Virus record (IMG/VR): IMGVR_UViG_3300037319_000032
Location: 1 to 24,925 of that record
Reading direction: 5' to 3' (one strand)
Source: a virus
Length of the DNA stretch: 24,925 nucleotides
How positions within the stretch are numbered: position 1 is the first letter of the stretch; every line of letters begins with the position of its first letter. The notes under the pieces were generated by a model. The model had not been told where the DNA came from. It was given only the letters and a program-made list of their open reading frames with translations, and did no database searches. A program made the translations under genes and the position numbers. Of this stretch, positions 3,670-20,896 are shown piece after piece.

Positions 3670-3845
3670 CAATCTGTTCCTCCAAAGTTTTCTTTGTTCA
3701 GGTCTACGCGCTGAATTTCTTCAGCAGCCATCACGCAGTTGAACTGCAAGCTGTTAAGCCACAGGACAGACTCAATATCTCCATGCGGTAGCTGACGCAT
3801 CAGCACATGAAGGTCTTCAATAAAAGTTTGGAAAGTTGTGTTCAT
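3669..3845 (-). CDS. small hypothetical protein, 58 aa, first gene of the leftward operon
   Basis: The frame begins MNTTFQTFIEDLHVLMRQLP and ends in EIQRVDLNKENFGGTD, mainly helical and soluble. It lies between the divergent control region and the DUF3310 gene, whose start it overlaps (TGATG). No Shine-Dalgarno sequence precedes the ATG. The promoter-like boxes upstream would place transcription at or next to the ATG, so a leaderless message is possible. No family is recognised. Confidence 0.55.
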   Translation of the reverse strand: MNTTFQTFIEDLHVLMRQLPHGDIESVLWLNSLQFNCVMAAEEIQRVDLNKENFGGTD

Positions 3846-3850
3846 ATATC

Positions 3851-3880
3851 ATTATTTGTGTGCAAATTTATTTTACACAA
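3851..3880 (-). promoter_or_regulatory. candidate leftward promoter within an imperfect palindrome
   Basis: On the minus strand TTGTGT (3880-3875) and AATAAT (3856-3851) are spaced by 18 bases, close to sigma70 -35 and -10 boxes. The predicted start is near 3844-3845, which is the ATG itself. TTGTGT at 3856-3861 (plus strand) and ACACAA at 3875-3880 also form the ends of an imperfect inverted repeat, so this may be an operator too. Confidence 0.45.
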
Positions 3881-3897
3881 TTAGGGGAAACCCCTAA
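3881..3897. promoter_or_regulatory. perfect palindrome, candidate operator
   Basis: TTAGGGGAAACCCCTAA has 7-bp perfect arms around AAA. It lies between the leftward promoter candidate and the first rightward promoter. It shares a TAGGG.AACC core with elements at 4198-4214 and 6850-6862, which precede the other two rightward promoters. It has no T-tract, so it is not a standard terminator. Confidence 0.55.
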
Positions 3898-3906
3898 ACA
3901 TTGGTG

Positions 3907-3934
3907 TGTGTTTTCTATGTCATAATAAACACAT
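3907..3934 (+). promoter_or_regulatory. early promoter/operator copy 1
   Basis: TGTGTTT (3907-3913) and AAACACA (3927-3933) are inverted arms flanking a -10-like CATAAT (3921-3926), preceded by TGT as in an extended -10. The same design recurs at 4223-4249 and 6895-6921. A GAAGGAG ribosome site (3944-3950) and an ATG (3957) follow. Confidence 0.55.
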
Positions 3935-3956
3935 ACCAACCCAGAAGGAGATTGAA

Positions 3957-4208
3957 ATGAAGCACTACCCAAACCAATATCTTATTCGCGGCTTTATCAG
4001 AGACATGAAGACCTCTAAGTTTAGAGGCCTTTGTTCCGCGCTGTCACACAGCGAGTGCCGTTCGCTGAATACGCAACAAATTCGCAAGGTCAAAGCGTTT
4101 CTTGCTTTCGGCTGGGACTGCCTCGGCAACTGCACTGTTTTGACCAAAACAGGCTGCGTCATGCAGTTGACAAGAGAAGAGTTTTTAAAAATGGAAAAAG
4201 TAGGGTAA
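3957..4208 (+). CDS. hypothetical protein, 83 aa, first early gene
   Basis: The product is basic, begins MKHYPNQYLIRGFIRDMKTS, and contains a segment SHSECRSLNTQQIRKVKAFL that could be a helical DNA-binding region, followed by a strand-rich end (GNCTVLTKTGCVMQLT). I do not recognise the family. The ATG at 3957 has GAAGGAG at 6 bases; an upstream GTG at 3906 lies inside the promoter. Its final codons overlap the AAGTAGGGTAACC block that belongs to the next control element. Confidence 0.6.
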   Translation: MKHYPNQYLIRGFIRDMKTSKFRGLCSALSHSECRSLNTQQIRKVKAFLAFGWDCLGNCTVLTKTGCVMQLTREEFLKMEKVG

Positions 4209-4216
4209 CCCCCTAT
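4198..4216. promoter_or_regulatory. TAGGGTAACC-type element, copy 2
   Basis: AAGTAGGGTAACC (4198-4210) is identical to 6850-6862. Here it continues into CCCTA, forming a TAGGG/CCCTA inverted repeat. It covers the end of the 83-aa gene and its stop; in the other copy the block is read in a different frame, so the conservation is not due to protein coding. Confidence 0.55.
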
Positions 4217-4222
4217 TCAAAC

Positions 4223-4264
4223 GTGTTTATCTTGATGTAAGATAAACACATCGCAACACAACTG
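4223..4264 (+). promoter_or_regulatory. early promoter/operator copy 2 with 11-bp perfect inverted repeat
   Basis: GTGTTTATCTT (4223-4233) and AAGATAAACAC (4239-4249) are perfect inverted arms separated by 5 bases. A -10-like TAAGAT (4238-4243) sits inside. The block AAACACATCGCAACACAAC (4244-4262) is identical to copy 3. There is no T-tract, so an operator is more likely than a terminator. The 103-aa gene follows after a GGAG site. Confidence 0.65.
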
Positions 4265-4274
4265 GAGTTTCCAA

Positions 4275-4586
4275 ATGACACAATACGCAAACCACATCGC
4301 TTACTCAGATGTCAACCCATTTGAGGTTGTCCGCGCCGTCAGTGGCAAGACAATCGAAGTTCGTGAGATGAGCGCAACAAAAGACGACAGCGTGAAAATG
4401 GACTTTCATGTCGGCGGCTTTTCTGCCCACTGCTCAAACCAACGTCAACAAAAATGGTTTATCACTTCAGACGAAACCGCTCAAGTCATTCGCATTCGAC
4501 TTGGCAAAGATGGCTGGAAAGACAAGCATGGTCGCCGCTTCAAGTTAAACGACCAGCCGATCAAGTTTTACGACTACAACTTTTAA
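4275..4586 (+). CDS. conserved phage hypothetical protein, 103 aa
   Basis: The product begins MTQYANHIAYSDVNPFEVVR and contains SGKTIEVREM, GGFSAHCSNQRQQKW, VIRIRLGKDGWKD and ends NDQPIKFYDYNF. I recognise it as a family common in phage and plasmid small-gene regions, but know no function. It is rich in beta strands and has no membrane segment. GGAG lies 8 bases before the ATG. It is the only gene between promoter copy 2 and a GNRA-loop hairpin, the same arrangement as the 199-aa gene after promoter copy 3. Confidence 0.75.
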   Translation: MTQYANHIAYSDVNPFEVVRAVSGKTIEVREMSATKDDSVKMDFHVGGFSAHCSNQRQQKWFITSDETAQVIRIRLGKDGWKDKHGRRFKLNDQPIKFYDYNF

Positions 4587-4606
4587 ACCAACGGGGCGAA
4601 AGCCCC
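4585..4606 (+). other. GNRA-tetraloop hairpin, copy 1
   Basis: GGGGC-GAAA-GCCCC (4593-4606) forms a 5-bp GC stem with a GNRA loop, preceded by AAACCAAC. The same 22-base block, with one loop base changed (GCAA), occurs at 7547-7568. There is no T-run, so it is more likely an mRNA-stabilising or processing hairpin than a terminator. Confidence 0.7.
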
Positions 4607-4622
4607 AACTAAGGAAAACCAA

Positions 4623-4919
4623 ATGAGCAAAATGTTAGAACTCAGTGCCAAGCGCTTGGAAGACATCAGGGCCAAGTGGCGTACAGACACTGGTGACGTT
4701 GAAATGGTTGAGATGTACCTGAGCATGGGTCGCACACCGAAAGGCTACACAGACGATCAAGCAGGGCGCACAGCACGCATCCTTGACTTGAACGGCAGAC
4801 TAACATCAGCACAAGTGGCCAACATTCGCAACGCGCTGCTGACCTTGGCCAAAGAGACACCGCCAACTGACCCGGAAGAAAAAACAAAAAGAAAGTACAC
4901 ACGCCGTCTTGCATCTTGA
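4623..4919 (+). CDS. hypothetical protein, 98 aa
   Basis: The product is helical and charged, begins MSKMLELSAKRLEDIRAKWR, and ends in a basic tail (KTKRKYTRRLAS) that could bind nucleic acid. The central part (DQAGRTARILDLNGRLTSAQVANIRNALLTL) reads as two or three helices. No family is recognised. The ATG follows AAGGA at 8 bases, just downstream of the GNRA hairpin, so it is probably read from promoter copy 2. Confidence 0.62.
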   Translation: MSKMLELSAKRLEDIRAKWRTDTGDVEMVEMYLSMGRTPKGYTDDQAGRTARILDLNGRLTSAQVANIRNALLTLAKETPPTDPEEKTKRKYTRRLAS

Positions 4920-4956
4920 TTTGTGTGTTATATTTAAATCTAATTGGAGAGTAAAA

Positions 4957-5172
4957 ATGACTGAGCATCTAAAAAACGTCTACAGTTTAAACAGCCAAGG
5001 CGAACGCAAACTAGGCCAGCTTCTTGGTCAAAACAAGACCGACTTTTACATTGATTGTCTGTTGGACTTGGAAGCATTAAAAGATCAAAACGATGCAGCA
5101 GTCATCGTTTATGAGGGCGCTACCGTTCATTTTGACGATAGTGATTTTGACGCAATGTTAATTGCAAACTAA
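4957..5172 (+). CDS. hypothetical acidic protein, 71 aa
   Basis: The product begins MTEHLKNVYSLNSQGERKLG and ends in an acidic part (HFDDSDFDAMLIAN). GGAG lies about 9 bases before the ATG at 4957; the longer frame from 4909 has no ribosome site and overlaps the previous gene. The AT-rich 37 bases upstream contain TATATTT and may hold a weak promoter. No family is recognised. Confidence 0.58.
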   Translation: MTEHLKNVYSLNSQGERKLGQLLGQNKTDFYIDCLLDLEALKDQNDAAVIVYEGATVHFDDSDFDAMLIAN

Positions 5173-5187
5173 AAAGGGAACATAGTT

Positions 5188-5526
5188 ATGTCTATACATC
5201 AAATTGCCATTGAGAAAGCCATCAGGATGCTTTCAGCAAGTGGCGCTACCTATCACATCAAGACAGCCGACAAAGAGTGGGGCGCACCCATACAAGCCGT
5301 CAAACTCAAGCGTAATGCGCGATACGGCTACGGCACGTTGACTAACCACTTTGCACCTTTTCTCAAGGACATAAAAGTGGGTGACGTTGCGCTAATCCCA
5401 TTCGGGGAATTCGACAAGGAGTCTATTCGAGGCGCACTGTGCGGCCACCTTAGCCATCATTGGGGCAATGGCTCTTACATGATTCACAGAGCAACCGACA
5501 ACATTGAAGTATTGAGGTTAGCATGA
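5188..5526 (+). CDS. hypothetical protein, 112 aa
   Basis: The product has an N-terminal helix (IAIEKAIRMLSASGATYHIKT) and then a mixed alpha/beta body with VKLKRNARYGYG and VGDVALIPFG. The last 4 bases overlap the ERF start (ATGA), suggesting translational coupling with the annealing protein and perhaps a related role in DNA metabolism. I do not recognise the family. AAAGGGAA precedes the ATG. Confidence 0.62.
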   Translation: MSIHQIAIEKAIRMLSASGATYHIKTADKEWGAPIQAVKLKRNARYGYGTLTNHFAPFLKDIKVGDVALIPFGEFDKESIRGALCGHLSHHWGNGSYMIHRATDNIEVLRLA

Positions 5527-6131
5527 GCGTACACATCAAACTGATGCAAGCCAGAATAGACTTGCAAAGCGCACCTCTTAAAAAAAGTGGCACTAATAAA
5601 TTTGCTGGCTACTCGTATTTTGAACTGCACGACTTTTTGCCAGAGATTCAAAACATTTTCTTTCGCATAGGACTGAGTGGCTACATATCTTTTGGCAAAG
5701 AGTTGGCCACTTTAACTATCACAGATGTGCATGACCAGACTGAAATTGCAATCACCAGCCCGATGGAGCCAGCAAACTTAAAAGGTATGCATCCGGTGCA
5801 AAATTTGGGCGCAGTGATTAGTTATATTCGCCGTTACCTCTGGATGGTAGCCTTGGAAGTTGTGGAGCATGACGTATTGGACGCAGGCAAGCCGCTAGAA
5901 GCCAAGAAAGACCCAATCATCACACCCAACCAAGGCGCACGCGAGTTGGTCACAGATGACGAAATGGCTGAACTGGTAGAACTAGCCGATATGTTGAAAG
6001 AAGCGGTCACAGAAGACCCAGCTAAGGCTAGACAAATTGTCATTAGCGCTAACTTAGAAGAAGCTCAGAAACTCGCACTGTGGACGCTGCTGGACTCTAA
6101 GACACGCGCATCACTCAAGAAGAAAGACTAG
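5523..6131 (+). CDS. erf: ERF family single-strand annealing protein
   Basis: The 202-aa product matches the ERF family (P22 Erf-like ssDNA-annealing recombinases). Typical features are KKSGTNKFAGYSYFELHDFLP (residues about 20-40), the strand-rich core with LTITDVHDQTEIAITSPM, and QNLGAVISYIRRYLWMVALEV (about 91-111), the conserved 'G..iTYarRY' equivalent. The C-terminal third is acidic, variable and probably the oligomer or partner-binding tail. It would anneal ssDNA in recombination and genome circularisation, working with NinB and NinG at 1-838. The start overlaps the previous gene by 4 bases. Confidence 0.88.
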   Translation: MSVHIKLMQARIDLQSAPLKKSGTNKFAGYSYFELHDFLPEIQNIFFRIGLSGYISFGKELATLTITDVHDQTEIAITSPMEPANLKGMHPVQNLGAVISYIRRYLWMVALEVVEHDVLDAGKPLEAKKDPIITPNQGARELVTDDEMAELVELADMLKEAVTEDPAKARQIVISANLEEAQKLALWTLLDSKTRASLKKKD

Positions 6132-6133
6132 CT

Positions 6134-6424
6134 ATGACTGCAAAACAAGAACGCGACCGCGTATTGGCAATGCTAGAGCAAAAGCGAAAAAGGTGGATTA
6201 ATGAGGCTAGAGCCGTTGCTAAAAAAATAGGCAAGGCCAACGGCGAGGTAACAATTAACGACTTGCGCAAGGTTGTAAGCCTGCCAGCGGGTTATCACGT
6301 AAACACTTGGGGCGCAGTCCTGCGCGGAAAACAATTTAAGCCAATTGGCTACACCAATGCGACACATCTTGCATCACACGCCCGTACTGTGCGGGTCTAC
6401 AAAATCATTGACATAAAGGAATAA
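6134..6424 (+). CDS. hypothetical basic protein, 96 aa
   Basis: The product has a long basic N-terminal helix (QERDRVLAMLEQKRKRWINEARAVAKKIGK), then a segment with a possible helix-turn-helix flavour (EVTINDLRKVVSLPAGYHVNTWGAVLRG) and a C-terminal strand (ARTVRVYKIID). It begins two bases after the ERF stop and probably binds nucleic acid in the same pathway. No family is recognised. Confidence 0.62.
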   Translation: MTAKQERDRVLAMLEQKRKRWINEARAVAKKIGKANGEVTINDLRKVVSLPAGYHVNTWGAVLRGKQFKPIGYTNATHLASHARTVRVYKIIDIKE

Positions 6425-6427
6425 ATC

Positions 6428-6697
6428 ATGGCTTTCGAACAACGGGACAATTCAGGTTCTATATTTCGCAATGAAAAGAAAGAAAAAGAAAATCACCCAG
6501 ACTACAAGGGTTCATGCATGGTCGGTGGCGTGGAAATGTGGATGAGTTCATGGCTTAAAGTGGGCGCAAACGGCACGAAATTTATGTCGTTCAGCTTCCA
6601 GCCTAAAGAGCAACAAGCCCAACAGCCAGCCGCTAGGCAAGCCGCCAAGCAAGCGCCTGCGCCTGCGCCTGAGTTCGATGACGATATGCCGTTCTAA
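6428..6697 (+). CDS. conserved phage protein with SSB-like acidic C-terminal tip
   Basis: The 89-aa product begins MAFEQRDNSGSIFRNEKKEK and has a small beta-rich domain (CMVGGVEMWMSSWLKVG, TKFMSFSFQP). A disordered Q/A/P-rich linker follows (residues about 58-80), and the chain ends in EFDDDMPF. That end closely resembles the conserved DFDDDIPF tip of bacterial SSB, which recruits partner proteins. It lies just after ERF. I infer a small ssDNA-associated or SSB-mimicking protein; the N-terminal domain family is familiar from phages but has no known function to me. AAAGGA precedes the ATG. Confidence 0.72.
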   Translation: MAFEQRDNSGSIFRNEKKEKENHPDYKGSCMVGGVEMWMSSWLKVGANGTKFMSFSFQPKEQQAQQPAARQAAKQAPAPAPEFDDDMPF

Positions 6698-6708
6698 AGG
6701 AAAATACT

Positions 6709-6855
6709 ATGGACAAAAAAGACCCCAAAAAATACTGCTCAGTGCGGATGTCGCTCGACCTTTTCAACCGCATCACTGCGCTGGCAGGCAAGGAGCAACG
6801 CTCGTTCACAGGACAGGTGCTGTTCCTACTTGAAAAGGCGCTTGCTGGCAAGTAG
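6709..6855 (+). CDS. ribbon-helix-helix (Arc-like) DNA-binding protein, 48 aa
   Basis: The sequence is too short for most gene calls but has the Arc-type layout. A short strand (KYCSVRMSL) is followed by two helices (LDLFNRITALAGKE, then SFTGQVLFLLEKALAGK). The ATG at 6709 follows AAAGGA and the frame ends TAG at 6855. It lies immediately upstream of promoter/operator copy 3; its stop is inside the AAGTAGGGTAACC block. It is a candidate dimeric repressor or activator of the three repeated early operators, which is inference from fold and position. Confidence 0.72.
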   Translation: MDKKDPKKYCSVRMSLDLFNRITALAGKEQRSFTGQVLFLLEKALAGK

Positions 6856-6862
6856 GGTAACC
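6850..6862. promoter_or_regulatory. TAGGGTAACC-type element, copy 3
   Basis: AAGTAGGGTAACC is identical to 4198-4210 over 13 bases and is followed by ACTT, giving AAGT/ACTT outer arms. It covers the stop of the ribbon-helix-helix gene, in a frame different from copy 2. Confidence 0.55.
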
Positions 6863-6894
6863 ACTTAGAAAATAACTGAAAATTGCTTCCCTTT

Positions 6895-6934
6895 GTGTTG
6901 CTATGTGTGTAGAATAAACACATCGCAACACAAC
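6895..6934 (+). promoter_or_regulatory. early promoter/operator copy 3
   Basis: GTGTT (6895-6899) and AACAC (6917-6921) are inverted arms 22 bp apart, exactly as in copy 2. A -10-like TAGAAT (6910-6915) lies between them. AAACACATCGCAACACAAC (6916-6934) is identical to copy 2. The 199-aa gene follows, with an AGGGGA ribosome site. Confidence 0.65.
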
Positions 6935-6947
6935 AGGGGATAGCAAA

Positions 6948-7547
6948 ATGACAACAGCACAGCGCACATGGTCTACAAACCACATTGAGAATGAGGCGGC
7001 ATACAGCGCCGCCATCAAGCGCAACATCATTGGCAACGCGCAAAAAACTTGGTTGGCCAACACAGCACGCTCTGAAGAAATTTTCACTGCTGTTAACGCT
7101 GGCCGCATTATTGACGAGCAGTACGGTCATATGTGTTACGCAGACAACTTTCTTGGCTCAATGGCTCACTCATTTGACACCTACGGCAAGTTGACAGAAA
7201 AGCAGTCAGCCGCCGTCTTAAAGGGCATCGATGCCCGTCAAGTCAAGCTGGAGCAATGGGCGCAAGAGCGTGCCGCACGTGATGCAGCCAGCAAGTGGAT
7301 TGGTGAAGTGGGCAAGCGCATTGAGTTGACCCTTACTGTCAACCACGTTGTAACGTTGTGCGGCGATTACGGCATGACTTTTATCAACTTGTGCCGTGAT
7401 GACTTTGGCAATGCGGTAGTCTACAAAGGCTCAAATGACCTCAAGTTTCACGGCGACAAGGTAACTGTCAAGGCTACCATCAAAGCGCATGAGACAAGGG
7501 ACGGCGTTAAGCAAACAATTATCGCAAGACCTAAAATTATTGACTAA
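6948..7547 (+). CDS. conserved phage protein, 199 aa, probable OB-like C-terminal domain
   Basis: The N-terminal part is helical (IKRNIIGNAQKTWLANTARSEE and LGSMAHSFDTYGKLTEKQSA). After a linker, the C-terminal part (residues about 120-197) begins KWIGEVGKRIELTLTV. It runs through MTFINLCRDDFGNAVVYKG and VTVKATIKAHETRDGVKQT and ends in an I.RPKI motif. I know this strand-rich domain from many phage and plasmid proteins of unknown function; the pattern would fit an OB-like fold. It is the first gene after promoter copy 3, so probably strongly expressed early. Confidence 0.72.
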   Translation: MTTAQRTWSTNHIENEAAYSAAIKRNIIGNAQKTWLANTARSEEIFTAVNAGRIIDEQYGHMCYADNFLGSMAHSFDTYGKLTEKQSAAVLKGIDARQVKLEQWAQERAARDAASKWIGEVGKRIELTLTVNHVVTLCGDYGMTFINLCRDDFGNAVVYKGSNDLKFHGDKVTVKATIKAHETRDGVKQTIIARPKIID

Positions 7548-7568
7548 AACCAACGGGGCGCAAGCCCC
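7547..7568 (+). other. GNRA-tetraloop hairpin, copy 2
   Basis: GGGGC-GCAA-GCCCC (7555-7568) is preceded by AAACCAAC. It matches the hairpin at 4585-4606 except for one loop base, and both loops keep the GNRA pattern. It lies between the 199-aa gene and the next ribosome site; no T-run follows. Confidence 0.7.
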
Positions 7569-7584
7569 TCAACAGGAGATTCAA

Positions 7585-7797
7585 ATGCGCATAGAAATTT
7601 TTTACATTGGTGGAAAAACAGGCTGGGCAGTGGCCTTTTATGACGCACAAAGAAACCAAATTGGTGATTCCGAATTTTTTTATTACAAGCAGCAGGCAAA
7701 AGCAGATGCCGTAAGCAAAGCGCTCAAAGCATCTATAACTGAGGTTTGCTCATACCGCGCAGATGGTGAGCGCCTTGCAGACATATCAGTAAACTAA
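7585..7797 (+). CDS. hypothetical protein, 70 aa
   Basis: The product begins MRIEIFYIGGKTGWAVAFYD, with two strands, then a helix (KQQAKADAVSKALKAS). The layout is reminiscent of small DUF2188-like proteins, but the match is too loose to name. AGGAG lies 7 bases before the ATG at 7585; the longer frame from 7489 overlaps the preceding gene and the hairpin. Confidence 0.6.
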   Translation: MRIEIFYIGGKTGWAVAFYDAQRNQIGDSEFFYYKQQAKADAVSKALKASITEVCSYRADGERLADISVN

Positions 7798-8168: not shown

Positions 8169-8489
8169 ATGACACCTGAACAACTAGCAAAAAACCTGCT
8201 GGCTATTATCGACTCTGAGATGTACGTCAACGATTTTGGTGGGCTTCAGGCTGGCCGTGATGCGACTACAGACATACACGCTGCGATGGGCAGGTTAGAG
8301 GCTGCCTTAGCAAAACCTATTACCCAAGACATTCCTCAGATTCCTCAAACGGATTACTCAAATAAGCAATGGGTAGCACTGACTAATGAGGAGCATATTC
8401 AGGTAGCAATGAACGCTGGCTGTATGAGCGCTGACTGGCTGTCTTATGGAGCCGCTGTTGAGTTGGCTTTGAAGGAGAAGAACACATGA
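8169..8489 (+). CDS. hypothetical protein, 106 aa
   Basis: The product begins MTPEQLAKNLLAIIDSEMYV, with a first helical half, a Pro/Gln linker (ITQDIPQIPQTD), and a C-terminal helical part (EEHIQVAMNAGCMSADWLSYGAAVELAL). It ends LKEKNT, and the bases for these residues form the AAGGAG ribosome site of the next gene. The ATG at 8169 has AGGAG at 7 bases. No family is recognised. Confidence 0.6.
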   Translation: MTPEQLAKNLLAIIDSEMYVNDFGGLQAGRDATTDIHAAMGRLEAALAKPITQDIPQIPQTDYSNKQWVALTNEEHIQVAMNAGCMSADWLSYGAAVELALKEKNT

Positions 8490-8791
8490 CACGAGAAGAA
8501 TTGATGGCAGACAGCACGCAGTACTGTTGCTACTGTGGTGGTGAGAAAGTGCGGTTTCAATGCTGCAGCGAGAACCACTTCCAGACCTTTGCTCAAATGT
8601 CTGCCGATGAGCAGGACGAGTTCTTGGACAACGAGGAGTGCGCCCCGCTGTATACATCAACACAACCACACAAGCCTTGGTTTGGGCTGACGCAAATAGA
8701 TGTTGATTCGTGGGGTTTACCATACCGCCCAACTGTTTTTGAGTTTGCACAGTTTATTGAAGAAAAATTAAAGGAGAAGAACAATGGCTAA
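8486..8791 (+). CDS. hypothetical Cys-rich protein, 101 aa
   Basis: Near the N-terminus, YCCYCGGEKVRFQCC offers cysteines in a CxxC plus CC arrangement (residues about 14-27), a possible metal-binding knuckle. A helix (FAQMSADEQDEFL) and an end segment (YRPTVFEFAQFIEEKLKEKNNG) follow. The start overlaps the previous stop by 4 bases and its end overlaps the next start by 8 bases. No family is recognised. Confidence 0.6.
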   Translation: MTREELMADSTQYCCYCGGEKVRFQCCSENHFQTFAQMSADEQDEFLDNEECAPLYTSTQPHKPWFGLTQIDVDSWGLPYRPTVFEFAQFIEEKLKEKNNG

Positions 8792-11273: not shown

Positions 11274-11623
11274 CAAATATGGTCTCCGCTGGGGTCGTAA
11301 GGGTCTAACAAAGGTTCAAACCACACTGCTACAGCTTTGCGCCAGCTAGTGCTTGTTGCGTTGTGACGCTTTAAACGAGCAGTTACCGTCATTTCTTTTG
11401 GCCACTCAAGCAATAACAACGTTAAAACCATTGCGTTGATTATAAAGTCAACCAGCCACCCTGCAAGCAAAATCGGGTAACCAAACACCATTGCGGTCTT
11501 GGTCATCAGACCGGCATCCTTGACCCTTTTCAGGTTCATCACTGCAAGGTAGAACACCCAGAGAATGTAAAACCCCAAAGCGCTAGATGCAATGTACCAG
11601 CCGCCAAGTGCTAGATAGGTCAT
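11273..11623 (-). CDS. integral membrane phage protein, 116 aa
   Basis: Two or more hydrophobic spans are visible (WYIASSALGFYILWVFYLAV, and YPILLAGWLVDFIINAMVLT). They are followed by a conserved cytosolic-looking end with WPKEMTVTARLKRH and LLDPYDPSGDHI. I recognise this C-terminal pattern from phage proteins of unknown role near lysis genes. Its start overlaps the stop of the 15-aa minigene (ATGA), and its own stop overlaps the next start. Confidence 0.68.
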   Translation of the reverse strand: MTYLALGGWYIASSALGFYILWVFYLAVMNLKRVKDAGLMTKTAMVFGYPILLAGWLVDFIINAMVLTLLLLEWPKEMTVTARLKRHNATSTSWRKAVAVWFEPLLDPYDPSGDHI

Positions 11624-19708: not shown

Positions 19709-20896
19709 TCAACCGCCATTGAGAATTGCGTCCGCAGCTTTGCGAACACTTGTTGCGGCTGGCGCGGGTTGTGAAGCAGGGTTTGCGCTTTTAACTACTG
19801 GGTTAGCCCGATTAAGGCCACCGCCCATCCCACGGCCATAGATTGAAATGTCAAACTGTGGATTTTGCAGCTTCAAAGAGACTAGCATTTTTACGCTGTC
19901 GAGCGCCTGAGACGCTGCCTCTGTTGTCATGCTTCTTGTGGGCAACATCGCTTCAAGCGTCTCTTGGTCTTTGTCTGTGAACACGCCTTCACCAGCACCG
20001 CGAAATACACTTTTCATTATTGGCAGTAACAGCGCCTTGGCGTTATCGGCAATTTGCGCACCAGTTGTTAGACCGGGTATGTTGCCCAAAATTTTGCCAG
20101 TCTGACCAGTACCACCCAGCGCTTGCTCAAGTGCGGAAAAGCCAAACTCAAATTGGTCACGTAGCGGCCCGTTAACCATTGCCGTAGAATTGGCCGCACC
20201 CTCTGCTGCTGCCGCCGCAGTTCCAGCGCCGCTTGAGTATGATCTGTCAAAATATACACTAGTTGGCTGGCCAGCCCGTGGGAGAAGACCAAGTGCAATC
20301 CGGTGTGCCATAAGTTTTTCCTTTTCACTCATGCCCTCAGTCCTCTCCGCAAAAGTCCGCATTTCAGCCGTTGCTTCGACACCATTTTTGGTCTTGAGCA
20401 TAGCCGTAAAGATTGGCACTGCTAGTTCCGGGTTGGCTTCAATTAATCCAGCCTCTTCAAACATACCCATGTTCTTCAACTGTAACGAAACTTGCTCAGT
20501 AGTACGGTTTTGCTTTCGTTCAGCGCCAATGCTTTTTACGCGGTCGTTCAAGACTTGCGCCAAGCCTGCGTCTGGGTTCAGGCGCATGGAATTGAAGCCA
20601 ATGCCAAGTTGCGCTATGGCAGCAGGGTCGTTCATCAGGCGTTTATACCAAGGCTCTTCAACTGGTGCAGGCTTTGCAAAGTTCTGTCCGTTGTACATTT
20701 TGCCATCTTCATTTGACACGAACCGACCACCGCCAGCCCGCATCTCAGGAAATACCATTGGCGCTTGCGGTTGCTCTGGTTGAGCGAATGCTGGCGCAGA
20801 GCGGGTCATTGGCGCGGCTTCTAGCGCAGGCACAATCCTGTCTAATAAACCCGCTCCTGCCTGCTGCACCAGTGGTAACAATCTGCTTGTAGCCAT
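19709..20896 (-). CDS. internal virion protein (probable), 395 aa
   Basis: The product begins MATSRLLPLVQQAGAGLLDR, which is similar to the start of the preceding 49-aa gene (see findings). The middle has a conserved-looking WYKRLMNDPAAIAQLGIGFN, NDRVKSIGAERKQNRTTEQV and a helical region. The rest is Ala/Gly-rich with LTTGAQIADNAKALLLPIMK. Like its 642-aa neighbour it is likely a virion ejection or DNA-transfer protein. Its ATG shares a base with the upstream stop (TAATG). No catalytic motif is seen. Confidence 0.66.
   Translation of the reverse strand: MATSRLLPLVQQAGAGLLDRIVPALEAAPMTRSAPAFAQPEQPQAPMVFPEMRAGGGRFVSNEDGKMYNGQNFAKPAPVEEPWYKRLMNDPAAIAQLGIGFNSMRLNPDAGLAQVLNDRVKSIGAERKQNRTTEQVSLQLKNMGMFEEAGLIEANPELAVPIFTAMLKTKNGVEATAEMRTFAERTEGMSEKEKLMAHRIALGLLPRAGQPTSVYFDRSYSSGAGTAAAAAEGAANSTAMVNGPLRDQFEFGFSALEQALGGTGQTGKILGNIPGLTTGAQIADNAKALLLPIMKSVFRGAGEGVFTDKDQETLEAMLPTRSMTTEAASQALDSVKMLVSLKLQNPQFDISIYGRGMGGGLNRANPVVKSANPASQPAPAATSVRKAADAILNGG

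Follow-up and report, generated by a model that had tools for sequence, protein, structure and literature searches.

What switches on the early genes of this phage is the question raised by three similar promoter-like segments in the window, that is the whole 24,925-nt stretch of DNA that was analysed. The pattern GTGTT-N15/17-AACAC occurs at 3908-3932, 4223-4249 and 6895-6921 only, each time around a −10-like hexamer (CATAAT 3921-3926, TAAGAT 4238-4243 and TAGAAT 6910-6915 in copies 1, 2 and 3, respectively), exactly as the first-pass annotation had listed them. The three occurrences compare with a shuffle mean of 0.17, and three or more were reached in 0 of 100 shuffles. Together the copies make up one 53-nt repeat family in the window (D2). 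Copies 2 and 3 have AAACACATCGCAACACAAC in common and copy 2 forms a perfect inverted repeat with 11-bp arms (4223-4233 and 4239-4249) that takes in the −10 TAAGAT, both as previously described. Copy 3 displays a longer near-perfect dyad, TTGTGTTGCtATGTGT at 6893-6908 and ACACATCGCAACACAA at 6918-6933, and the relatives L003-L006 have this 16-bp inverted repeat, which surrounds the promoter 3 −10, in perfect form. The arm spacings of 20, 22 and 22 bp given earlier are correct to the letter, but the GTGT arm keeps an identical register in all three copies when these are aligned on the −10, and the difference in spacing is therefore a mere alignment detail. The −10 positions are weight-matrix calls, from which the starts were predicted. 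No recognisable −35 was seen at promoters 1 and 2 when the sequence was inspected, and the earlier suggestion of early promoters with unconserved −35 boxes and apparently dependent on a regulator is supported in that all three copies look like regulator-dependent promoters with a poor −35 ahead of rightward early operons.

A second three-copy family (D11; 3879-3896, 4198-4215 and 6850-6867), overlooked in the first-pass annotation, contains a 15-bp dyad, TAGGGnAAACnCCTA, one ahead of each promoter, and three dyads were likewise reached in 0 of 100 shuffles. Site 1, TAGGGGAAACCCCTA (3882-3896, + strand), has perfect 6-bp arms and is conserved in relatives. Its centre at 3889 lies 32 bp ahead of the −10 of promoter 1 (core 3908-3932, +; predicted start about 3933), or at about −44 from this start, and the CATAAT is directly preceded by TGT, making it an extended −10. 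Promoter 1 is followed by an 83-aa early gene (3957-4208, +) with family members in the relatives, the stop codon of which (4206-4208) is inside site 2, TAGGGTAACCCCCTA (4201-4215, +). Site 2 is centred at 4208, 30 bp ahead of the −10 of promoter 2 (core 4223-4249, +; predicted start about 4250) and at about −42, and the early operon downstream (4275-6855, +) encodes an Erf-type annealing protein (5523-6131, +) and ends with the gene of a 48-aa Arc-like ribbon-helix-helix (RHH) protein (6709-6855, +) that matches a PHROG of Arc-like repressors (phrog_3431, E = 4.8e-4). Site 3, TAGGGTAACCACTTA (6853-6867, +), opens with the TAG stop codon of the RHH gene, has a weaker right half and is centred at 6860, 50 bp ahead of the −10 of promoter 3 (core 6893-6933, +; predicted start about 6922) and at about −62. 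Adjoining site 3 is an A-rich stretch, GAAAATAACT (6868-6877, +), a conserved companion of the dyad at longer spacings and a possible UP-like contact for the alpha subunit. The 199-aa early protein encoded 3′ of promoter 3 (6948-7547, +) belongs to a PHROG of unknown function (phrog_27218, E = 4e-34).

The distribution of the dyad reaches far beyond this phage. Relatives of the window carry it in the same place and orientation, with no other copies in their records. Exact copies were found ahead of promoters in about 90 viral loci having at most one tested gene in common with this phage, and the dyad also precedes promoter-like sequences in unrelated phages; the isolated Limnohabitans phage DC31 carries it, and Xylophilus phage Lumi carries a version with one mismatch. 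In a set of 123 non-redundant sites (21 family and 102 other), the distance from dyad centre to −10 showed peaks at 30-32, 40-42 and 50-51 bp. The sites in phase numbered 85 of 123, against a mean of 21.2 and a maximum of 37 in 500 random resamplings, and 65 of 102 when only non-family loci were counted. Orthologous copy-3 promoters were found two turns apart in spacing, at 30 bp in L011 and about 51 bp in L022. Phasing by 10 bp of this kind is the mark of an activator that makes contact with RNA polymerase from sites near −43, −53 or −63. The pattern TAGGGNAACCNCNTA...ATAAACACAT gave no matches because copies 2 and 3, from which it was derived, are atypical. Among the matches listed for the symmetric ideal TAGGTGTNNACACCTA, most were taken as chance, and no match to the string TAGGGTAAACACCTA was found in the literature searched.

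Dyads with one mismatch also occupy conserved chromosomal positions in Limnohabitans-type bacteria. At boxC promoters the site was present in 18 genomes, 17 of which have a centre-to-−10 distance of 52 bp, and further conserved sites were found at bchC, coxS and transporters. Chromosomal site groups were in phase in 14 of 27 cases versus about 5 expected, and several conserved groups (bchC, enoyl-CoA hydratase and MHS transporter) were out of phase. The idea of an extensive host regulon of exact sites was rejected since exact copies in 301 family genomes amounted to only 34 versus 18 for the reversed control, an excess of only about twofold. Copies with one mismatch showed no overall excess over control. 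Two named candidates for the host regulator were also rejected. The published ACTU sites of the acetate regulator CrbR/ErdR, TACTACCATCGTCGAAT and TACGACTAAAGTCTAAA, are unlike TAGGGnAAACnCCTA (PMC5715377). A FixJ-like regulator (fixL-fixJ pair divergent from aceE) was considered on account of a site seen in two genomes, but this site is not conserved in the family: among 29 aceE-fixL intergenic regions, the site was found with one mismatch in one, that of the query genome, with 2 mismatches in two and with 3 to 5 in the rest. For AccR of Azoarcus, a consensus for comparison was not found in the open literature.

The reading we prefer, with a probability of roughly 0.6, is that these are class I/II activator-dependent promoters served by a host-encoded activator through the upstream 15-bp dyad. 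The computations show the element itself, a fixed orientation with respect to the transcript, the helical phasing, the occurrence in unrelated phages and the conserved places on chromosomes; activation rather than repression, a host origin of the protein and contact with RNA polymerase are inferred. The three copies would be early promoters of the sigma70 type in which the −35 box is poor or missing, and an activator that sits on the TAGGGnAAACnCCTA dyad, on the same helix face as RNA polymerase, would turn each of them on. At sites 1 and 2, with the dyad centre at about −43, the arrangement would be class II-like, and at site 3, as with dyads at about −53 or −63 generally, class I-like, usually with an A-rich GAAAATAA just after the dyad, and the gap between activator and core promoter could there be occupied by the alpha subunit. 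A 15-base palindrome upstream of promoters, at fixed helical-turn positions in many unrelated phages, is the likely control switch, and these phages probably share it to borrow the activator of the host bacterium. This activator would most likely be a carbon/energy regulator of Limnohabitans-type Comamonadaceae, presumed hosts of this phage also, and one site would serve numerous unrelated phages of such hosts for expression right after infection. A more specific version, in which an undescribed global activator of freshwater Comamonadaceae acts at boxC and perhaps at bchC, coxS and transporters and is used by scores of unrelated phages, each having acquired the 15-bp site at −43, −53 or −63 and so tied its expression to the carbon/energy state of the host, has in our estimate an even chance of being correct.

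Class I/II sigma70 promoters of the CRP/FNR type (about −41.5 and −61.5) are similar in having a dyad upstream of a poor −35 at positions one or two turns apart, and the −63 sites leave room for the alpha-subunit contact. Discrete positions on one helix face and a poor −35 in the −43 class were both found here, whereas the −53 position, in contrast to CRP/FNR-type promoters, is about as frequent as −43 and −63. Neither the CRP consensus TGTGA-N6-TCACA nor the FNR consensus TTGAT-N4-ATCAA is matched by TAGGGnAAACnCCTA. Phage-encoded proteins that activate promoters in the absence of a −35 box, among them lambda CI/CII, Mu Mor/C and T4 MotA, likewise replace a weak −35 by an upstream activator, but their sites belong to one phage group and here one site is common to unrelated phages. 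Among betaproteobacteria, the class I/II type is exemplified by AcpR of the FNR/CRP family, centred at −41.5 in the Azoarcus bzd PN promoter (PMC6678401). There is a further resemblance to the LuxR-type CrbR/ErdR of the CrbS/R system, which switches on carbon-use genes through a required inverted repeat just upstream of an RpoD promoter, at −52 to −36 in the case of acs (PMC5715377), with the published TACGACTAAAGTCTAAA differing from TAGGGnAAACnCCTA.

It is unlikely that the dyad is instead bound by a phage-encoded regulator, here the 48-aa RHH protein as activator or in feedback and elsewhere diverged small proteins of the same specificity. In those relatives whose sequence extends to the third promoter, an RHH homologue is encoded immediately ahead of it, with the stop codon within site 3, and the Arc-like PHROG match points the same way. 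Arc and Mnt of phage P22 are RHH repressors, small early-region proteins with dyad operators of TAG-containing half-sites, and the window phage also has a small RHH protein in its early region and TAG-containing dyad half-sites. A pair of RHH dimers would fit well on two TAGG/CCTA half-sites at a distance of 11 bp, and this is the geometry of the dyad. Unlike the Arc/Mnt operators, however, TAGGGnAAACnCCTA is present in phages that yielded no RHH homologue, at activator and not core-promoter positions, and has chromosomal counterparts outside phages. No RHH homologue was detected by a family HMM in the complete genomes of DC31 and Lumi, and homologues were confined to a minority of carriers, the window family and a few others, most other loci being fragments; the RHH protein was rejected as a general dyad binder on these grounds. 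Unrelated carriers have different genes at the site, and no gene family or regulator common to the dyad-carrying phages was found in loci that are mostly fragments, where a distant gene could be missed; a single phage regulator for all carriers was rejected within the same limits. As activator of its own operon, moreover, the RHH protein could not start the first transcripts. The idea of a phage regulon with its own protein is not supported, since TAGGGnAAACnCCTA is common to phages without a common detectable regulator gene and has conserved chromosomal copies in bacteria.

Less probable still is that the dyad is a repressor operator, of phage or host, overlapping the −35 region of promoters that are constitutive unless repressed. 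A protein at −43 could also repress, the dyad at about −43 overlaps the −35 region, and TTGACA stands directly beside the dyad in a few promoters (L053 group). One third to a half of the dyad sites, however, are at −53 or −63, beyond the usual reach of steric repression and with the phase kept, and promoters of the −43 class, mostly without a −35 (at least 4 of 6 −35 matches in 9 of 31 sites), would be weak alone. Least probable of all is the first proposal, in which a phage regulator acts at the −10 through an operator made of the GTGTT/AACAC arms two turns apart, for although the window has more of these arms than expected by chance and a family-specific operator is possible at the 16-bp dyad of promoter 3, the AACAC half is part of a −10/leader block also present, without the GTGTT arm, at canonical TTGACA-17-TATAAT promoters of unrelated large phages, the left arm is absent from the first-copy promoters of relatives L011/L026, L015, L039 and L105, and the lack of arm conservation in related phages, named beforehand as a refutation, is what was observed for the arms, both being present at 9 of the 21 sites in the family and at 0 of the 102 elsewhere.

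The experimental focus is thereby moved from the arms to 3882-3896, 4201-4215 and 6853-6867. If a host activator does act here, one short DNA word would couple gene expression in many unrelated freshwater phages to one regulator of the host, and would serve as a sequence marker by which promoters of phages, and possibly their host range, can be recognised in a bacterial group that is abundant and little studied. The system would also provide a clear example from nature of class I and class II positions being used repeatedly, and the dyad would give a direct handle on the host activator. On the opposite strand, a weak candidate −10 of a divergent leftward promoter, TAAAAT (3870-3875, −), can be read from the sequence, and site 1 would overlap the spacer of this putative promoter.

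The three early promoters of this phage record (24,925 bp, taken from a collection of viral metagenomes) have their -10 hexamers CATAAT, TAAGAT and TAGAAT at 3921-3926, 4238-4243 and 6910-6915. The rightward early region starts at promoter 1, which is followed by an 83-aa gene. Downstream of promoter 2 comes the operon 4275-6855; its products include an Erf-type annealing protein (phrog_155, E=7.5e-18) and an Arc-like ribbon-helix-helix (RHH) protein of 48 aa (6709-6855; phrog_3431, E=4.8e-4). The gene of a 199-aa protein lies downstream of promoter 3. No close phage was found in the annotated phage collection; the portal protein shares 46.5% identity with its counterpart in Octadecabacter Antarctic DB virus 2. 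The first-pass annotation took GTGTT and AACAC arms around the -10 hexamers for the operator of a possible phage regulon. Its letters were all correct, GTGTT-N15/17-AACAC occurring exactly three times in the window and in 0/100 shuffles as often, and the repeat search of the window groups the three copies in one 53-nt family, D2. The same search gave a second three-copy family that had been overlooked, D11, a 15-bp palindrome (the TAGGG dyad) found upstream of each promoter at 3882-3896 (TAGGGGAAACCCCTA), 4201-4215 (TAGGGTAACCCCCTA) and 6853-6867 (TAGGGTAACCACTTA). These three copies (up to two mismatches) exceed chance, the shuffle mean being 0.24 and none of 100 shuffles holding three, with a pattern fixed after relatives had been inspected. 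From dyad centre to first base of the -10 there are 32, 30 and 50 bp at promoters 1, 2 and 3, which puts the centres at about -44, -42 and -62 relative to the predicted starts.

In relatives, retrieved via the Erf protein and via the leader pattern, nearly every promoter copy carries the dyad or a degenerate form (such as TAAAGAAATTACTTA in copy 3 of L003/L004) at a fixed position, and whole-record scans gave one to three dyads per phage, throughout in a single orientation relative to the transcript. The GTGTT arm is missing at the first-copy promoters of the relatives L011/L026, L015, L039 and L105. Both arms occur together at 9/21 family sites and 0/102 other sites, so that the arms were wrongly assigned as the regulator's site. 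Large unrelated phages (L014/L029, L013/L027, L020) also match the leader pattern, with ...TATAATAAACACATCGCAACACA... at promoters of which several are canonical TTGACA-17-TATAAT and have neither dyad nor GTGTT arm; the AACAC 'arm' is therefore part of a general -10/leader block. L014, L029, L013/L027 and L020 have a block in common, AAACACAT(CG)CAACACA, directly 3' of the -10 and in most cases ahead of a ribosome-binding site; it recurs as a -10/leader block in its own right.

The dyad extends to unrelated phages, 75 viral loci being matched by TAGGGNAAACNCCTA...AACACA and at least 120 by TAGGGNAAACNCCTAGAAAATAA. Among 109 non-redundant loci, 81 shared none of the twenty window proteins tested and 11 shared one. 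At most unrelated loci inspected the dyad stands shortly 5' of promoter-like sequence, a ribosome-binding site and a start codon; a few matches lie inside genes and are chance-like. The isolated Limnohabitans phage DC31 has a 28-bp exact consensus match (20004-20031), and Xylophilus phage Lumi has a copy with one mismatch; the two hosts belong to the Comamonadaceae. The DC31 dyad points into the 930-bp stretch without annotated genes in which it lies (L229, 19820-20750); the flanking genes are on the other strand, and the stretch possibly yields a non-coding transcript.

Helical phasing was assessed at 123 non-redundant sites, taking the best -10 hexamer by a simple weight matrix that excluded -35 information. 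Distances from dyad centre to -10 cluster at 30-32, 40-42 and 50-51 bp, corresponding to dyad centres near -43, -53 and -63. With windows picked after the histogram was seen, 85/123 sites were in phase, whereas 500 first-order Markov resamplings averaged 21.2 and never exceeded 37; the figure for non-family loci by themselves was 65/102. Relative class sizes are biased by what the scans needed, AACACA 20-50 bp downstream in one and GAAAATAA in the other; neither condition is able to produce a 10-bp period. At the orthologous copy-3 promoter L011 has a distance of 30 bp and L022 one of about 51 bp, which amounts to a move of two turns. Sites of the -43 class seldom have a -35 (at least 4/6 matches in 9/31 sites) or GAAAATAA (4/31), and GAAAATAATT stands directly 3' of the dyad in 24/28 sites of the -53 class and 26/28 of the -63 class, partly a selection effect. 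The repeated, regulator-dependent early promoters of the first-pass annotation are borne out. Class II and class I activator positioning is established for CRP/FNR-type promoters, and the dyad shows the same positional behaviour in its phased positions and two-turn move. Among betaproteobacteria, AcpR, positioned at -41.5, is an example of such an activator (PMC6678401).

Exact dyad copies in 301 host-family genomes numbered 34 versus 18 for the reversed control, only about twice, and no overall excess of one-mismatch copies over control was found in host-family genomes. Particular one-mismatch variants recur, across 60 genomes from the genus of the Limnohabitans MAG, at orthologous intergenic places: at boxC in 18 genomes, the -10 lying 52 bp from the centre in 17/18, and at bchC, enoyl-CoA hydratase, coxS, an MHS transporter and TRAP transporters, names read from translated sequences. 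Chromosomal site groups were in phase in 14/27 cases versus about 5 expected by position alone, and several conserved groups are out of phase; their motif letters are conserved through match selection, and common position was not selected for. CrbR/ErdR was rejected as binder for motif mismatch. Likewise rejected was a FixJ-like regulator encoded divergently from aceE, with an NCBIfam FixJ score of 232 bits (under the cut-off of 255): two genomes have an adjoining site, and the other members of the family do not. Locus L445 (5310-8509) holds a FixL/FixJ-like gene pair oriented divergently to the pyruvate dehydrogenase operon, and relatives of this kinase occur in 45/46 family genomes scanned.

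The computations show the site itself, its polarity and phasing, its occurrence in unrelated phages and its chromosomal counterparts, and we infer an activator dimer of host origin that would sit on the dyad and recruit RNA polymerase, giving early expression. At -43 it would probably reach the polymerase via sigma/alpha contacts, and at -53/-63 the alpha subunit would probably lie on the A-rich stretch. Repression through the dyad could take the place of activation. Activator-dependent promoters are an already known kind; in the open-access literature searched, where the consensus string was not found, there appears to be no earlier description of the motif, of its phasing or of its sharing among scores of unrelated phages.

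A regulon run by the phage's own protein, as first proposed, keeps its regulator-dependence and probably loses its own regulator. RHH genes do stand directly upstream of copy-3 promoters within the window family; carriers outside it have other genes there, and no RHH homologue was found in DC31 or Lumi, DC31 having three weak protein matches only to the family. All-against-all ORF comparison of 109 loci gave no family in more than 25, the largest looking like the terminase large subunit from its sequence. A host protein is therefore favoured as binder of the dyad. The RHH protein's real target might be a long inverted repeat around the promoter 3 -10 (6893-6933; TTGTGTTGC.ATGTGT / ACACATCGCAACACAA), possibly a second, family-specific operator; in the relatives L003, L004, L005 and L006 the arms of this repeat match perfectly over 16 bp.

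Leftward genes begin at 3845, the first with no clear ribosome-binding site (minus strand, 3846-3881) and with an upstream AAAATAA-TTT stretch, in the same interval, kept in relatives; site 1 may control a putative leftward promoter. Promoter copies mark places where genes have been gained or lost, the breakpoints lying at the repeats: the gene between promoters 1 and 2 is missing from L005 (around 8462-8772), and the 199-aa gene after promoter 3 from L004 (around 11371-11438). A 45-nt repeat (D8) at 4585-4629 and 7547-7591, between two gene pairs, holds a GGGGCG(A/C)AAGCCCC hairpin and has a ribosome-binding site after it.
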